64,000 nucleotides of DNA. It comes from Vicingaceae bacterium. Its GTDB lineage: Bacteria > Bacteroidota > Bacteroidia > Flavobacteriales_E > Vicingaceae. Position numbers and translations under genes: made by a program. The notes below the pieces were generated by a model. That model saw only the letters and a program-made list of their open reading frames with translations, did no database searches and was not told the origin of the DNA. Location: NCBI GenBank assembly GCA_018402765.1, contig JAGYIE010000002.1, positions 124,001-188,000 on the forward strand, given 5' to 3'. Shown here one piece after another: positions 3,832 to 64,000 of this stretch. The first letter of the stretch is position 1, and each line of letters opens with the position of its first letter.

Positions 3832-4773
3832 ATGTCTCGAAAAGTAATTTTCATTGATTCTGTACATCTTATTTTAAAAGACCGATTAGAAGAAATGGGG
3901 TTCCAATGTGATTGGAAAATTGATTTAAATCGTCAGGAGATTGAGGAGATTATTGATCAATATGAGGGAGCAGTAATCAGAAGCAAGTTCAAATTTGATG
4001 CAGATATACTTCACAAAAGCAGTCACTTAAAATGGATTGCACGTTCCGGCGCAGGAATGGAAAACATCGATTTAGATACCGCAAAAAGCCTAAACATTCA
4101 GTGTTTTAATTCCCCTGAAGGCAATAGAGATGCCGTAGCTGAACATTGTATCGGAATGTTGTTGAGTCTATTCAATCACCTATCCAGAGGAGATCAGGAA
4201 GTGCGACAAGGCTTGTGGTTGAGGGAGAAAAACCGCGGAATTGAACTCAAAGGAAAAACAGTTGGGTTGATAGGTTTCGGATTTATGGGTCAAGCATTCG
4301 CTCAACGACTGCAAAGTTTTGGAGTAACTATTTTAGCGCATGACAAATACAAAACGGGATTTGGAAGTGATTTAGTAAAAGAAGCGACCTTGAAAGACCT
4401 TCAAGAAGAATCGGATGTAATCAGCATTCACCTGCCATACACCGAAGAAACGCACTATTATGTTGATGAGCAATTTATAGCCAATTGTCAAAAACCATTT
4501 TACCTCATCAATACCGCTCGCGGAAAATGCTTGGACACCTCAGCGTTGGTAAAAGGAATCAATGCTCAAAAAGTTTTAGGAGCTTGTTTAGATGTCTCCG
4601 AATTTGAAAGTATTTCCTTTGAAAACCTCAACAAAGATCAGCTTCCTCAAGCATTTCAGGATTTAATTGCTTCCGACAAAGTTATTCTTTCTCCTCATGT
4701 GGCCGGCTGGACGGTTGAATCTTATGAGAAATTATCGAGTTTTTTGGCAGAGAAAATATTAGGTAATTGTTAA
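3832..4773 (+). CDS. D-isomer 2-hydroxyacid dehydrogenase
   Basis: This is an NAD-dependent dehydrogenase of the D-2-hydroxyacid family (phosphoglycerate/glycerate dehydrogenase type), 313 residues. The Rossmann GLIGFGFMG motif is at about residues 145-153. The expected catalytic set is present: Arg in NTARG (about 230), an acidic residue in LDVSEFES (about 257-259) and His in LSPHVAGW (about 289). It lacks the C-terminal ACT domain of long SerA forms. It starts 2 bases after mgtE, so it is probably co-transcribed. It could be the 3-phosphoglycerate dehydrogenase of serine synthesis or a glyoxylate/hydroxypyruvate reductase; the sequence alone does not decide. It converges with the aspartate kinase gene. 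Confidence 0.88.
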   Translation: MSRKVIFIDSVHLILKDRLEEMGFQCDWKIDLNRQEIEEIIDQYEGAVIRSKFKFDADILHKSSHLKWIARSGAGMENIDLDTAKSLNIQCFNSPEGNRDAVAEHCIGMLLSLFNHLSRGDQEVRQGLWLREKNRGIELKGKTVGLIGFGFMGQAFAQRLQSFGVTILAHDKYKTGFGSDLVKEATLKDLQEESDVISIHLPYTEETHYYVDEQFIANCQKPFYLINTARGKCLDTSALVKGINAQKVLGACLDVSEFESISFENLNKDQLPQAFQDLIASDKVILSPHVAGWTVESYEKLSSFLAEKILGNC

Positions 4774-4820
4774 TTATCAATGGTTAATTGATGTATTCAG
4801 CAAACCACATTAACAATTAC
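4763..4820. terminator. AT-rich convergent inverted repeat
   Basis: GTAATTGTTAAT at 4763-4774 and ATTAACAATTAC at 4809-4820 form a perfect 12-base inverted repeat that spans the stop codons of both convergent genes. The 34-base loop holds a second perfect hairpin, ATCAAT-N5-ATTGAT, at 4776-4792. GC content is very low and there is no clean U-tract, so termination strength is doubtful. The symmetry and convergent position make a shared terminator the simplest reading. Confidence 0.4.
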
Positions 4821-6085
4821 TTCACCACAAACCTCGCAGTCTGTCTACTCTTTTGCTCTACATAAATAGTTTTACCATTTAGAAGTTTAGAAAGTGTTTC
4901 CTCATCATAATGACGAACTGTTAGCAACAGTAACTCATCATTGAAATATACCTTATAGTCAGCTTTCAATTCTTCAATAAGTTGGTCAATTTTCTGTTTT
5001 TGATTATCTACACAAACAGAAAAACTAAGCGCTGAATTCTGCATCAGATTCACAGCGACTTTATGCTTTGCAAAGCAGCCAAAAATCTGACTTAAGTTCT
5101 CCTCAGCTATAAACGAATAATCTCTAGGCGAGATAGAAATTAATCTTTGATTCGTTTTAAAGATATAAGATGGAATCAACGAGTCTTTTGAAGAGTTTTC
5201 ATTAATTATACTTCCTTCTTCTTCAGGGTTTAAGAATGACTTTACAAGCAATGGAATTTGCTTATTTTGTAATGGCTTAATCGTTTTTGGATGAATAACT
5301 GTTGCGCCGTAATACGCTAGTTCTACTGCTTCATGGTAAGAAATATTGTTGAGTTTTACAGTATCTTCAAACCATTTTGGATCAGCATTGAGCATGCCAG
5401 GAACATCCTTCCATATCGTTAGAGAATCTGCATCTGTTAGATTAGCCAGAATTCCTCCTGTAAAATCAGAGCCTTCTCTTCCTAAAGTAGAATTAAAATT
5501 TTCTGAAGTGGACCCTACAAAACCCTGAGTAACCATCAATTTATTAGCACTATCAGCGAAATAAGGTTTTAAATAGCGATTTACATTCTCAGCAGAAACC
5601 ACCCAATCTACTTTTGCATTTCTATAGGTGTTGTCGGTTCTAATTAAATCGCGCACATCTTGCAATTTATTAGTCAACCCGACATGCTTTAGATAGGCTG
5701 AAACAATGGTGGCAGAAATCCATTCGCCAACAGCAACCATTTGATCGTACTCAAAATCGTACTCCCGCATTTGTTCTTCTTCCAGTTGCCACTCTATTTC
5801 AACAAACGTATTGTGAATTTCTTGGAAAATTGGATGACGGGTATCTTCAAATAGCTCCTTTAAGATATCAAAATGAAAGTGTTTTACTACTTCTAAAAGA
5901 GTCATAGCATTTTCTCGTCCATGAAAATAAGCATCTAACAACTCTTCCAAAGCATTGGTGGTTTTGCCCATCGCGGAAACCACCACTATAATTTGCTCTT
6001 CCGGGTAACGCTCTAAAATAGTTGCTACGTTTTTTACTGCAGCGGCATCTTTTACTGATGCTCCTCCAAACTTAAATACCTTCAT
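4817..6085 (-). CDS. Aspartate kinase
   Basis: This enzyme phosphorylates L-aspartate, the first step toward lysine/diaminopimelate, threonine and methionine. The N-terminal KFGGASV motif (residues 5-11) and the catalytic core with GREGSDFTGG and DPKWFEDT fit the amino-acid kinase fold. The C-terminal third (from about residue 310) looks like a tandem ACT-type regulatory region, the usual site of feedback control. The 422-residue length fits a monofunctional enzyme without homoserine dehydrogenase. It follows directly on the SSAT-like acetyltransferase gene with no bases between the two. Which amino acid feeds back on it cannot be read from the sequence. Confidence 0.93.
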   Translation of the reverse strand: MKVFKFGGASVKDAAAVKNVATILERYPEEQIIVVVSAMGKTTNALEELLDAYFHGRENAMTLLEVVKHFHFDILKELFEDTRHPIFQEIHNTFVEIEWQLEEEQMREYDFEYDQMVAVGEWISATIVSAYLKHVGLTNKLQDVRDLIRTDNTYRNAKVDWVVSAENVNRYLKPYFADSANKLMVTQGFVGSTSENFNSTLGREGSDFTGGILANLTDADSLTIWKDVPGMLNADPKWFEDTVKLNNISYHEAVELAYYGATVIHPKTIKPLQNKQIPLLVKSFLNPEEEGSIINENSSKDSLIPSYIFKTNQRLISISPRDYSFIAEENLSQIFGCFAKHKVAVNLMQNSALSFSVCVDNQKQKIDQLIEELKADYKVYFNDELLLLTVRHYDEETLSKLLNGKTIYVEQKSRQTARFVVK

Positions 6086-34045: not shown

Positions 34046-34139
34046 AACTTAACTTTCCTTAAAAAGCACACTTTTTTGGTTTTATCATGCAACCATTAAT
34101 GCTTTTATTTCATCTATCTATTGCTTTATTACACTAAAA

Positions 34140-34697
34140 ATGCCTGAGACCTACATGACGGAAGAAGAGATGATAGCGGGTAGTCTTAAACAGGACGAAA
34201 AAGCACAGAAAGCGCTATATAACTCTTTATCTAGAAAGATGATGGGTGTGACGCTGCGCTATTGTACAAGTGTGGACGAAGCACAAGATATACTGCAGGA
34301 CGGGTTTATTAAAGTGTTTAGCAAGTTGAGTTCTTATAATGGTGAAGGAGTATTTGAAGGTTGGGTAAGAAGAATTATTGTCAATACAGCGCTTGATCAC
34401 ATTAGAAAAAGTAAAAATGTGCGATTCCATGTAGATATAAATGAAGTGGATTACTTATTAGCTGATCAGACAATTATTTTGGAGTCTTTGGCGGCAGATG
34501 ATTTACTAAAAGTAATTCAAGAACTACCATTGGGTTACAAAACAGTATTTAACTTATTTGCAATTGAAGGATATTCCCATAAAGAGATAGCGGAGGAACT
34601 AGGAGTAACTGTAAACACTTCAAAATCGCAGTACTCTAGAGCTCGTACATTTTTACAAAAGAAATTAGAAGACATAAATATAACATCAAGTGAATAA
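34140..34697 (+). CDS. ECF-type RNA polymerase sigma factor
   Basis: The 185-residue sigma-70 family factor contains region 2 (about 20-90, including DEAQDILQDGFIKVFSKL and FEGWVRRIIVNTALDHIRK) and region 4 (about 125-180, GYKTVFNLFAIEGYSHKEIAEELG), as in Bacteroidota ECF factors. It lacks region 1 and most of region 3. Its last codons overlap by 8 bases the start of a membrane protein gene that looks like its regulator. The start at 34140 gives MPETYMTEEEMI; an internal Met at residue 6 is an alternative. No clear TAnnTTTG box precedes it. Confidence 0.93.
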   Translation: MPETYMTEEEMIAGSLKQDEKAQKALYNSLSRKMMGVTLRYCTSVDEAQDILQDGFIKVFSKLSSYNGEGVFEGWVRRIIVNTALDHIRKSKNVRFHVDINEVDYLLADQTIILESLAADDLLKVIQELPLGYKTVFNLFAIEGYSHKEIAEELGVTVNTSKSQYSRARTFLQKKLEDINITSSE

Positions 34698-35835
34698 AGA
34701 GAATAAACCCATAGAAGACCTTTTTAAAGATGCCTTCGAGCATTTTGAAAAAACACCGAGCAACAGTGTTTGGTCAGGCATTCAAGCAGAAATAAATGCA
34801 CTTGCAACAGGAGCAGCTGTCGCAGCAAAAAGCGCTATGAGTATTGGTGCTAAGATTGGAATTGCGGTAGCTACCATAGGCGTTATAGCGACTACTTTAT
34901 ACGTTGGCTTCACTAATTCAAATGATGACAATAGAGCAATTACTCAACAAGAAGTAATAACACAGCAAAAAAAGGCCCTTATTCCTGCTGTTGAAGAAGA
35001 AAGTAATTCACCTGAAACTACAAATGACGAGATTAAAAACATAGAAATTCAAAGAAGTGTTAGCACAAATAAAAATCAAGCTAATTCAATAATTGATAAT
35101 TCTAACAATCAAATAAAAGCCTCTTCTTATAAAAACAATCAATCAACAGCTAAAGCTACAGGCAATTCTACAAAAAAGCTAGTAACCCCAACAAATCCAA
35201 TAGCAAACATTGTAGGCAATGTAGTTATTTCAGAAAATAAAGAAATAACTGAACAGCATGAAATAGCAACTAACCAAGTAAATGAAGCTCTGCAAGAAAG
35301 TAAAGAGGAGCATGCAGTGACGGCTTCATTGAAAGCGGAAATTAATGTAAATAAAACAAGTGGGGAGGTTCCATTTCAATTGACCTTTAACACTCTTGAA
35401 GAAGCTGATTCATATACTTGGAAACTTAATGGTTTAACGATTAGTAATAGCAAAAGTAGTTCAATAGAAGTAACTGTAGATGGAACACAGAAGCTAGAGT
35501 TGACGGTATCTAAAGGTAAGGTTTCAGCACAATCAATTCAGATTATAGATGCCAAAAGATCAACATCAATGAAGGTCATTCCAAACATATTTACACCCAA
35601 CCAAGACGGCATGAATGATGTTTTTAGAATAGAAGGTAACTTTGAGCAGCTTTCAGTGAAAATACTTGATCAGAACTATAAAGAATTACACAATTGGACA
35701 GGCGAATATGGCTTCTGGGATGGCTCAAATCCTGATGGAAGCATGGCTCCCAATGGCGTATATTTTTATGTTGGCAGTTACCAAAAAGATGGAAAAAAAG
35801 AAACTATGAAAGGTAGTGTAACGCTGAGGAGATAG
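34690..35835 (+). CDS. Putative membrane anti-sigma factor with PKD-like and T9SS type B-like C-terminal domain
   Basis: This 381-residue protein starts at GTG inside the sigma gene. The cytoplasmic segment (1-50) has the LFKDAFEHFEKTPSNSVWSGI pattern seen in proteins paired with Bacteroidota ECF factors. One membrane helix follows (about 54-74), then a Ser/Asn/Thr-rich linker (about 75-210), a PKD-like beta-sandwich (about 217-288) and a C-terminal domain (297-381) with IPNIFTPNQDGMNDVFRI and NGVYFYVGSY. The last domain is the CHU_C/gliding-motility type used as a T9SS type B signal. No cleavable signal peptide is visible, so the helix probably anchors it in the inner membrane with the sorting-like domain in the periplasm. 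Confidence 0.78.
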   Translation: MNKENKPIEDLFKDAFEHFEKTPSNSVWSGIQAEINALATGAAVAAKSAMSIGAKIGIAVATIGVIATTLYVGFTNSNDDNRAITQQEVITQQKKALIPAVEEESNSPETTNDEIKNIEIQRSVSTNKNQANSIIDNSNNQIKASSYKNNQSTAKATGNSTKKLVTPTNPIANIVGNVVISENKEITEQHEIATNQVNEALQESKEEHAVTASLKAEINVNKTSGEVPFQLTFNTLEEADSYTWKLNGLTISNSKSSSIEVTVDGTQKLELTVSKGKVSAQSIQIIDAKRSTSMKVIPNIFTPNQDGMNDVFRIEGNFEQLSVKILDQNYKELHNWTGEYGFWDGSNPDGSMAPNGVYFYVGSYQKDGKKETMKGSVTLRR

Positions 35836-35839
35836 ATAA

Positions 35840-35885
35840 TCGAATAGCTTTTCCAAAGTTTTAGAACCTTGGAAAAGCCATTCGA
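35840..35885. terminator. Convergent hairpin after the anti-sigma gene
   Basis: TCGAAT, one unpaired base and GCTTTTCCAA (35840-35856) pair with TTGGAAAAGC, one base and ATTCGA (35869-35885), around a 12-base loop. It sits between convergent genes. There is no real U-tract, so it may act with Rho or by RNA processing. Confidence 0.6.
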
Positions 35886-35886
35886 A

Positions 35887-59798: not shown

Positions 59799-62700
59799 CT
59801 ATTGTGAAAGCGTAAAACGCAAACTAATTCCAGCATTTGTATTTGCTGTTGGAAAGGTGGATGAAATATAAGGGGTATTCATAATTCTGTCATAAAAAGC
59901 ACGAATATTTAGTCGTGAACTTAATACATAATCTGCTGTGAATTTTATAGCAAATATACGCTGACCAGCAGTTAGTTCATTCTGATCTTCCACAATTTTC
60001 CGAATAATAGTTCGGTTATTTCTTACAGAAAAATCAGCACGCATATCTAAATCACTCACCCTCTTTTTAGTTGATTTTCCAAATGGGAATGGTACATTCT
60101 TTAATCGATAACCCAATCCAATAACTACTTCTGAACCTTTAACTTCAGTAAGTTGATTATTATTCAAACTTAATGACATATTTCGATCTTTTTTGTATTC
60201 TATTCGAGTTAATAAACTATTGTTCCATGTCATATCAATATTCATTAACGGACTAAATTGTTCGCTAATACTAACAGAGGCAACTTGTCTTTGAGGAATA
60301 AAGTCTCCTTTGGTAAGTCTTCCTTCAGGATTTCCTTCATCAAAAAATGGGTTGGTAGTAAATGAACCAACATTAAATGTAGACCTGTAACGATGACCAA
60401 TTGTAAAGCTTCTAAAATACTTTTTAAAAAAATCTAGCTTAGAAAGACCGTCATAAGTAATGCTCCAGTTTGGAACAGGCAACTTACTTACAAACTCACC
60501 AAGAGAATATGAGCTAGCGCTTGACCCGCTATAAGCAGCGATGAATGAGTTAATCAATACTTCTTGAGACGTACCACTATATCCGTCTGCATAAATCCCT
60601 CCTAATGAATCAGAATAAACAAAAGTAGAATAAGCATTCTCCTCACCTAACCGCTGTGAAATTATACTTCTATTGGCTAAAAACTGATCAAAAGCATCAT
60701 TCTGATAGGTAACTTCATCATCTTTCATGAAAGCAGTTTTCCAACTAATAAAACTCATGCTAAAGCTTCCGTTAACTTGCGTAGGGCCAAAATCATAACC
60801 GGGACCTCCAGAAAGGGTATCATTCCAAATATAATATCTAGAAGTGTTTTCTGAGTAGGTTCGATTAGCCGTTAATTCGACTCGCATATCTTTAACGGGT
60901 TGAAAAGATGCCCTTAAATTAAGATTTTCGGAATAGGTCTTTGAGAAATTTCCAGATATAAAGAGAGATTCTGTTCCTTGCAATGTCCAGCCTTCTCTTA
61001 AAGCTCTCTCAAAATAGTCCGTACCAGGCTCCTGTAGACCAAAAGCAAAACCTACTCCAGGAGCATTAAAATTACCATCAAACCCTAATACATTCATTTC
61101 TCGATTATAATTAGGAAGTATGGTCCCTTCTGTAACGCTATAACTCCCCGAAACTGTTTTCAGGCTCATCGCCAAACGCCCCATGTTATCGAGAATATGT
61201 ATTCTAAAAAAGCTCGGCTCATCTTCTTTGGTTGTATCTTCAATCTCTCCTGTTTCGACTTTTTTACGATACGTTTTATCGGCTAAAGTCAATCGTCCTA
61301 TTTCCTTCTTCTTTTTCTTAGGCTTGCTTAATTCTTTTAAGTAATCAAACTTATTGTATAAAGTTGTCATACTTAAATTCGCATTCAATGCATAGTTTCC
61401 TGAGTTTTTAATGGTTGACCCTAGTGAGTCAGCATCAATATCCCCATTCAGAGCCCAGTTGAAGTTACCTGCATAGGTAGCATTTGCAGAAATCCATTCA
61501 AAATATGGAATCTTTGAAAATGGTAAGGTATAGGTTAGGTTTAGGTTCTGGGTATATTGCGTATTATCACCAAAACGCTGGACATTGTTCCACACCTCAT
61601 CTCTAAATTTACTATATTCGTCTTTAAACTTGCTATCAACACGTCCTTCAGGCTCGCCAATCTGAGCCATATTATTTGCATTAAAATCTAAGATCAAACT
61701 CTTGGTTAAATTATACCGTAAGGAGTAAATTCTATTCCAAGTAAAGGTTTTCTGATAGAATGGATCGAATTCAAAAAAGGAAGTATTGTTTCTAACTTGC
61801 CTTGAATTATATGATCTATTTATTTGTGTTTGAAAAGAATACTGTGTCGGATATAGGTTAAAATTAATGTCCTTTATCAATGTGAATGCTTTTCGTCGCT
61901 TAAAAAATTCTACATTTTTAAACGGCTCTATGGTAAGGGGTTTAGCAGTAAAATTATAATTCAAACCACCTCTATGTGTTTTTCTATTGTCATATTCAGT
62001 ATTGATATCCCTTTTAAACGTTTCTGTGTAGGCATAAGAAACAGCGAAGTTAGAAACATCAAAAGGTGTGGCCACCTCTTTTGTTGTGGACTTTTCTCGC
62101 CTCACATTAGTGAAATTTATACTTCTTGTCTTGGTATAATCGTCCGTTCTTCTTCTAATAGAATCACGGTAATCTTGGGTAAAATCGTCATTATTTACTA
62201 TATCATTTAGCTGCAAATCAGGATCTAATGGGTTGTACTCGGGACGAATAATATTTTCTGACACCCCAAAATACATTGGGATACTAAGCTTTGCCTCTTC
62301 AGGTAATAATTTACCGAGCTCTATGGATGAAGACAAATTATACTGCATACGAGTTTCTCGTTGACGTTCATTCAGTTTTTGTTCCAAACTACCCCACCCA
62401 GGTGTGCTCATTGCTCCCGATAAGGTCACTGCACCAAGATCTGCAATTTGAGCTGTTGCTCTTGCTTGTGCTGCCCAACCTCCTTCATTATCAAAATCAG
62501 AAAGTCGCAGTTCATTTACCCATACCTCGGCGCATTTAGGTAGTCCATCATCATTAAAATTCGTTTCTCCTGTACGTAAATTCTTAACCCCAATCATTAT
62601 TACCTTTACTTCTGCTAGGTTAGGATTACCCTTTATACGAATCGTATTTTTCGTTCCATCAACTTCTGAATAGGGCCTACTAATACTTATACCTGTGGAT

Positions 62701-64000
62701 GGATCTAACATTCTAACATTTCTATTTTTCTTAACCTGTAGAAGTTTATCAAAAGCTAAGTCTATATTATTGTACTCGGGCCAAATACCTTCCTTATTGG
62801 AACTTGTAGTACCATAAGGAGTAACCTGAAGCGGAACCTCATATTCATAATAGTTTTCTTCAAAATCAATTCCTAAACGAAGCACCACTGCAATATCATT
62901 ATTGCTTAGTGCATTCTCATTTCCTGACGCCTCTGCATGAGCATACATTTTCAATCGCTTATACTGGCGAATATCTAAATCTAATGCTCTAAATGCTGAC
63001 CTCGTATAACCATCATTAAGATTACATACATTAAGTACTAAGGATTGCTCGTTAATCTGACGTAAATTGGTAGATCCAAAATCCACTTCTCGCTCAATTC
63101 CCGGAGGGATAGAATAGTTTATAGGCACCCTATTGGAGTTCTCCTCAACATTAACTGCAGAAACACTAAATGTAGTTGTACCCTCTTCATCATTATGTGT
63201 ATCTCCGGGAATCAATTGATCGTTTGAATACTTTCTCCACTCTCCTCTTACAAGCCCAAGCTGCGCAAATCGGACAATAACTCGCTCATCAAAACCTTTA
63301 AGAAACATTCTCATAAACCGAATCGATTTAAAGTCTCGAATGCTACCAACTACCTTGTCTGGTTGTCGAATAGGAATTTTAAACTGATACCATTTAACTT
63401 CTTTTGTTTCCCCATTTACATTTACAGTTCCTGTAAGAACATCGGTTATGTAGTTAGTTCCAACATTTCCTTCTTGCAGGGCTTGAGGTGATAAATTTAC
63501 CTTATATTGATAGTAGGCTTCTGTTCTATCTAAACTAAAATTACCATTAATATCTTCATTATCAGGTAAAGTAGTTGATGATGTAGAAAAGTCTGCACTA
63601 GCAGATTGAGCAGGAGAGTTTCCTTGGGTTCCATTAAATTTCTTGTAGCGGTCTAAAATACTTAGTTCTAAGTTGTCATAATCTGCTCCTCTATAATAAT
63701 GATAATCATCTTTAGATGGATCTGCATTAAAATCATTAAATGCATTTGCATCTAGCACACTTTGCAATTGGTTTAAGTAATCTGTGAAGGCTTGTCTTTC
63801 TTGTCCATTACTTAAACCGTCTAAACCCAAATCCTGATTATTCCTTGCTGCCGGGTTATTGTCAAAAGCATTTATAATGTAGGTCACTGTTGGAATTCTT
63901 CCCCAAATAACACTAGCTGTATTCTGATTTGTTCCATCTGCGGGCAAACCATTTTCAAACATTAATCTACCATCTTTCAATATGTCTTCACTTATACTTC
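59799..64000 (-). CDS. sprA: SprA/Sov type IX secretion translocon, N-terminus beyond window
   Basis: SprA is the very large outer-membrane beta-barrel that forms the T9SS export channel used by gliding adhesins and secreted enzymes. About 1400 C-terminal residues are in the window and the frame stays open to the last base. The visible part contains long repeated beta-hairpin strands, stretches such as [20 protein letters not shown], the [18 protein letters not shown] region and a C-terminal strand ending in FTLSQ. Full proteins are about 2400 residues. Its presence shows that the organism has T9SS, which supports the type B-like domain found at 34.7-35.8 kb. Confidence 0.95.

Follow-up and report, generated by a model that had tools for sequence, protein, structure and literature searches.

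What does a T9SS type B sorting domain do on a membrane protein that is encoded together with an ECF sigma factor? The question is raised by a gene pair in a 64,000-nucleotide stretch of DNA from a Vicingaceae genome of 3.1 Mb; the whole of this stretch was analyzed and is hereafter called the window. The known route that links the T9SS to an ECF sigma factor, by way of PorA, PorXY, and SigP, concerns the components of the T9SS machine itself and not the output of surface proteins. A sigma factor partner that wears the tag of the cargo, together with a presumed promoter before cargo genes, would constitute a direct and testable coupling and suggests a way for the cell to match the production of surface proteins to the export performance of the T9SS.

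Organization of the sigma factor locus

The following features of the locus and its surroundings were located in the window.

34088–34115, forward strand: promoter-like motif TGCAACC-N16-CATCT, presumed autoregulated ECF promoter (exact match; spacing conserved in relatives)
34140–34697, forward strand: ECF sigma factor gene, 185 aa (Sigma70_r2 and Sigma70_r4_2 over the Pfam cut-off; TIGR02937, 89 bits)
34690–35835, forward strand: presumed anti-sigma partner with a T9SS type B sorting domain, 381 aa, GTG start (8-bp overlap with the sigma gene)
35840–35886, unstranded: strong hairpin, probable terminator common to the partner gene and the convergent metH (RNA fold −22.6 kcal/mol, z = −7.2)
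62202–63782, reverse strand: SprA_N domain of the gene for a 2440-aa SprA/Sov T9SS translocon (PF14349, E = 3e-173)

The product of the first gene of the pair gave Pfam scores of 54.3 bits for Sigma70_r2 and 59.8 bits for Sigma70_r4_2, both above the cut-off; with its TIGR02937 match, it is an ECF sigma factor possessing sigma-70 regions 2 and 4 without large extra domains. The initial annotation had placed an overlap of 8 bases between this gene and the next, and the coordinates bear this out, with the GTG start at 34690 and the end of the sigma gene at 34697. A histidine kinase gene lies upstream of the pair, and metH lies downstream on the opposite strand. Because a hairpin follows the stop codon of the partner gene, the locus looks like a two-gene operon. 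No PorP/SprF-type gene directly adjoins this operon in the window, the flanks being the histidine kinase gene and metH. The SprA/Sov translocon gene is located approximately 27 kb from the operon, within the same window.

Domain architecture and topology of the partner protein

The partner protein is divided into five parts.

34690–34824, forward strand: N-terminal segment, residues 1–45, presumed sigma-binding part (alignment; I8, F12, and W28 invariant)
34843–34917, forward strand: single transmembrane helix, residues 52–76 (hydropathy; helix in a low-confidence model)
34918–35334, forward strand: low-complexity, probably disordered tether, residues 77–215 (composition; pLDDT mostly under 30)
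35335–35559, forward strand: PKD-like domain, residues 216–290 (profile match to collagenase PKD in the PDB; strands, pLDDT 50–79)
35578–35832, forward strand: CHU_C/T9SS type B C-terminal sorting domain, residues 297–381 (PF13585, TIGR04131)

This order, namely, a short cytoplasmic-type segment, one helix, a linker, a PKD-like domain, and a CHU_C-like domain, had been proposed by the initial annotation, and all of its parts were confirmed by domain, hydropathy, and profile searches. The C-terminal domain matched CHU_C (PF13585) over residues 297–379 with 54.9 bits (cut-off, 27) and TIGR04131 over residues 297–381 with 42.5 bits (cut-off, 35); the partner thus carries the C-terminal domain of a T9SS type B substrate above the curated cut-offs. 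Apart from CHU_C, residues 1–45 are the most conserved part of the protein in an alignment of relatives. The linker is rich in E, T, S, N, and K across the relatives, and almost no structure was predicted for the tether in a model of the partner, which was made with two sequences and was poor (mean pLDDT, 37.5). Positions 220–284 of the family profile matched PKD domains in the PDB (collagenase); the Pfam search of the window's partner itself returned no PKD match, and the alignment shows that the PKD-like domain is missing from some relatives, for example, L024, L028, and L033. Matches to known anti-sigma families (zinc-binding anti-sigma and FecR) were not found in the partner with Pfam and NCBIfam up to E = 1.

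The partner has one hydrophobic stretch, at about residues 52–76. No hydrophobic stretch was detected in the first 35 residues of 75 relatives, where the top Kyte–Doolittle mean over 12 residues was 1.08, and the presumed cargo proteins described below reached 1.6 to 3.1 within their first 45 residues by the same measure. The claim that the sole hydrophobic segment is an internal helix is therefore upheld. The N-terminal Sec signal peptide of T9SS type B substrates was found neither in the partner nor in the 75 relatives. The helix starts at about residue 47 to 93 in the relatives, and the average net charge is positive before it and negative after it. Hydropathy and charge fit a predicted inner-membrane anchor with a cytoplasmic N-terminus and speak against a cleaved signal peptide, a possibility rejected on the ground that every relative has its helix in an internal position.

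From the helix to the CHU_C domain, the relatives have 124 to 249 residues (median, 171), the PKD domain included. Judging from this length, an extended chain could cross the periplasm. It follows that the CHU_C domain need not remain on display in the periplasm, and it could extend as far as the translocon in the outer membrane or a shuttle at the surface; the internal anchor assumed by the initial annotation stands, but the domain need not be confined to the periplasm, as the tether may cross this compartment.

The sorting domains of these partners mostly differ from many ordinary CHU_C domains in one motif. R-[WYF]-G was present in 7 of the 75 partner CHU_C domains and in 21 of 43 comparison pieces, some of which were PKD pieces. 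With this motif mostly missing, the sorting function may be altered; secretion by way of the partner tag may be partly impaired, or the tag may have become suited to capture without export. Taken further, the loss could mean that the partner is a membrane anti-sigma factor in which CHU_C has been repurposed as a periplasmic binding or folding sensor that no longer engages the T9SS and responds to, for example, a ligand, peptidoglycan, or a misfolded envelope protein. The systematic nature of the R-[WYF]-G loss, the dispensable neighboring PKD domain, and the absence of a Sec signal peptide are all consistent with such a sensor. However, the other CHU_C hallmarks (PNxDGxND, WDG, and GxYxY) are largely retained, CHU_C itself is retained in 75 partners though PKD has been lost in some of them, and the presumed regulon consists of CHU_C cargo, as described below. 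We therefore regard repurposing as unlikely, although not negligible.

Conservation of the gene pair and alternative partner types

When 346 genomes of the class were surveyed with a full-length partner profile, 28 full-length relatives were recovered, and in all 28 the gene immediately upstream, in the same orientation, matched the sigma profile. The initial annotation had proposed searching genomes for proteins that combine an anti-sigma-like N-terminus, a helix, and CHU_C beside ECF genes, and had named relatives lacking a sigma neighbor as evidence against its reading. The search revealed a conserved system, and relatives of the latter kind were absent from the 28 full-length matches in the 346 genomes. 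The gene arrangement is not due to chance, being kept across many genera.

Partner types were assigned by reading the next gene at 93 nonredundant loci of the best-scoring sigma genes. There were 75 CHU_C partners, 14 barrel-type or barrel-like partners, and 4 short partners without a distal domain, in a sample biased toward the CHU_C type, since CHU_C-type loci had supplied the sigma profile. The median gap between the sigma and partner genes at these 93 loci was −1 bp, and the CHU-type rows of the sigma tree covered 12 families. An HMM of the N-terminal region (segment and helix) also matched the N-termini of barrel-type partners (L161, E = 8e-13; L174, 2.5e-12; L168, 1.3e-7; L160, 1.5e-6). 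Several barrel-type partners matched outer-membrane β-barrel families in Pfam. L160, which is encoded in the window's own genome, had no Pfam match and was called barrel-like from a reading of its sequence alone (strand-like C-terminus, ...GINTGIRIRL). SprA was present in all 63 genomes tested and fails to separate CHU-type from barrel-type genomes.

These results bear on the simplest alternative, in which the partner is an ordinary T9SS substrate that loses its internal helix by cleavage, becomes anchored at the surface, and owes its place beside the sigma gene solely to regulation by the sigma factor. Such a protein would be expected to carry a real sorting domain, as the partner does by both curated cut-offs, and other CHU_C genes also seem to be under the control of the sigma factor. 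By contrast, an internal helix starting at residue ~47 to 93 with a hydrophobic N-terminus in no relative, an N-terminal segment that is strongly conserved and common to β-barrel partners, and the constant position next to a sigma gene in the full-length relatives make this alternative very improbable.

A promoter-like motif precedes the sigma gene and T9SS type B cargo genes

The window contains a single exact match to the motif, at 34088–34115, upstream of the sigma gene. Among the 93 loci, the motif was found upstream of the sigma gene in 67, versus 0.45 by shuffling, and the spacer was 16 nucleotides in 66 of these 67 loci. The consensus was KGCAACY-N16-CATCW, that is, [TG]GCAAC[CT]-N16-CATC[AT], with CGTC as a minor form of the −10 element. 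The motif has the form of an autoregulated ECF promoter and is presumed to act as one; related sigma factors could share it. It also permits the sigma regulon to be listed in many genomes.

A strict form, TGCAACY-N16-CATCT, was used to scan 41 genomes, and the matches were classified for 25 genomes of the same family and for G039, which belongs to another family. The same-family genomes contained 12 intergenic matches that were not at sigma genes and lay no more than 130 bp from a gene start. Seven of these 12 genes (L222, L223, L226, L227, L269, L272, and L278) encode CHU_C over the Pfam cut-off, giving a binomial P of about 1e-10 when a base rate of 1.5% is assumed. Two more, L221 and L225, are truncated where their contigs end and share 73% and 67% identity with L222 and L223, respectively; the remaining three encode a secreted protein cut at the end, an envelope-type protein, and a small protein. 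At least seven motif-led genes in the same-family genomes thus encode T9SS type B cargo with signal peptides. Four further motif-led CHU_C genes were found in G039 (L229, L230, L233, and L256), two of them with SprB repeats.

In the window's own genome, the copy preceding the sigma gene was the only strict match located between genes; five other exact matches were discarded because they lie inside ORFs. A weaker copy of 17.4 bits was found 98 bp upstream of a CHU_C gene (C9:227364-230021) in this genome, compared with a best non-sigma score of 14.7 bits in 128,000 window positions. Since the N-terminal part of the encoded protein matches L222 at 3e-40, the same cargo family is motif-led in several genomes. 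The mature parts of this secreted CHU_C family (L242, which is G000 C9:227364-230021; L221–L223; L225–L227; L269; and L272) begin with a sequence like [ST]-H-x-x-G-G-[DE]-[IL], and the family is a candidate for the main target of the sigma factor.

Because the motif stands before both the sigma gene and cargo genes, the sigma factor probably switches on both its own operon and the T9SS type B cargo genes. The link of the sigma pair to the T9SS, which the initial annotation had drawn from the sorting domain, is strengthened by relatives in which the sigma-gene motif also precedes type B cargo genes.

Comparison with known systems

Dma, a dual membrane-spanning anti-sigma factor encoded beside an ECF21 sigma factor, consists of an N-terminal sigma-binding domain, a helix, a long disordered tether, and a C-terminal barrel (PMC13088901). 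The window's pair shares with it an adjacent sigma factor, compared here at the level of the ECF class, as well as an N-terminal segment homologous by HMM to that of barrel-type partners, one helix, a long tether, and a C-terminus directed to the outer membrane. The window's genome and related genomes also encode barrel-type members of this sigma subfamily. The window's partner differs in ending in a T9SS type B sorting domain, often accompanied by PKD, instead of a β-barrel, and in a presumed regulon of T9SS cargo, whereas that of Dma comprises vesiculation and polysaccharide-use genes. As the sorting domain replaces the barrel, the partner is Dma-like in its inner three parts but no Dma by the full definition. 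The dual membrane-spanning layout is thereby widened from β-barrels to a secretion signal.

PorA of Porphyromonas gingivalis carries a T9SS C-terminal domain (CTD) and feeds into PorXY-SigP, which likewise brings a CTD protein to bear on a T9SS-linked ECF sigma factor (PMC7712824). However, PorA is a surface protein with a signal peptide and acts via a two-component system, and SigP controls T9SS components (PMC7712824), whereas the targets found here are cargo and the sorting domain sits on the sigma factor's own membrane partner. The initial annotation was right that this architecture differs from PorX/PorY-SigP, as far as the T9SS-tagged form is concerned, but the form is not isolated, being a variant of the Das/Dma layout (PMC13088901). 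Overall, its interpretation is supported in part: the T9SS link stands, whereas display need not be restricted to the periplasm and the architecture is not isolated.

SM6 ECF-type promoters of Flavobacterium psychrophilum, which have a CGT −10 box and drive T9SS components, likewise connect an ECF sigma factor and an anti-sigma factor with the T9SS in a flavobacterium (PMC9723704); by comparison, the motif of the present loci is GCAACY-N16-CATC, and cargo genes are the targets identified. Type B substrates that use PorP/SprF shuttles have the same C-terminal family, CHU_C/TIGR04131 (PMC12618676, PMC9143113), but the window's partner has no Sec signal peptide, is anchored by an internal helix, is paired with a sigma factor, and belongs to a group of partners in which R-W-G is mostly lost. 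In the open-access papers searched, we found no description of an anti-sigma factor with a T9SS sorting domain.

A proposed cargo-mimicking partner as a sensor of T9SS traffic

The locus is best explained, with somewhat better than even confidence, as a two-gene operon of an ECF sigma factor and a Dma-like membrane anti-sigma factor whose tag reads the T9SS, so that cargo synthesis follows export capacity. The sequence data support the predicted operon, the architecture, the homology to barrel-type partners, the conserved motif, and the occurrence of this motif upstream of type B cargo. From these we infer sigma binding, capture by the T9SS, the direction of the signal, and the release step. 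Under this explanation, the sigma factor would drive its own operon and T9SS type B cargo, and residues 1–45 of the partner, judging from homology and position, would hold the sigma factor at the inner membrane. The tether would run through the periplasm, its distal end bearing the same tag as the cargo of the sigma factor, and the tag would let the T9SS translocon or a PorP/SprF-type shuttle capture it.

Recognition of type B tags falls to specific PorP/SprF-like shuttles, which are probably required at a stoichiometric level, and secretion is limited by their low abundance; it also depends on five conserved motifs within the tag (PMC12618676). With specific shuttles scarce enough to limit secretion, a tethered tag would be well placed to compete for the shuttle or the translocon. 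Capture would depend on the amount of real cargo in transit, and capture or its loss would alter how tightly the sigma factor is held, making cargo synthesis track export capacity. Two directions are compatible with the sequence: capture may pull the tether and release the sigma factor while the T9SS has spare capacity, or the release may come from a loss of capture once there is too much cargo.

The sign of the partner's action also has to be considered. FecR-type partners are a known precedent for positive sigma partners, and the N-terminal segment might activate or stabilize the sigma factor when the T9SS is active. The translational overlap, which suggests near-stoichiometric production of the two proteins, would suit such a role. 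A FecR domain is nevertheless absent from the protein by Pfam, and the closest described layout, that of Dma, is inhibitory (PMC13088901), which makes a positive partner rather improbable. A feedback sensor of T9SS traffic thus remains the best reading, with anti-sigma activity, engagement of the T9SS, and signal direction as its conjectural elements.

A broader proposal is plausible, although we hold it with less than even confidence: the partners may form a class of cargo-imitating anti-sigma factors widespread in Bacteroidota, in which the tethered tag competes with cargo and the sigma factor reads the free T9SS capacity and adjusts transcription. FlgM is a small soluble anti-sigma factor that is fully exported by the flagellar secretion system. 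Like FlgM, the window's partner would be an anti-sigma factor bearing the export signal of a machine whose products its sigma factor controls; unlike FlgM, it is predicted to be membrane-anchored and so could report engagement without leaving the cell. If the proposal is true, the cargo-mimicking anti-sigma factor would be the membrane-tethered counterpart of the FlgM logic for the T9SS.

Variants of the gene pair

The window's genome (G000) has a second, more distant pair of an ECF sigma factor and a helix/PKD/CHU_C protein on contig C11 (L010:3497-4717 and sigma gene 4721-5281, both on the reverse strand), for a total of two CHU-type pairs and one barrel-like pair. On contig C10 of the same genome (C10:481640-489430, L014), three tandem genes of 512 to 521 aa give weak CHU_C matches. 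Short partners that stop after the helix and tether were observed at L170, L175, L176, and L184 and at second sigma loci in L074, L078, L079, and L126; lacking any distal domain, they may represent a third end-type. In family f9 (L142, L146, L148, L149, L151, L153, L154, and L156–L159), the presumed sigma-binding segment, W motif included, occurs as a tandem duplicate before the helix, as in the example NLFQQRFQGHEALVDPGVW ... LFKDRFQGHELPV.
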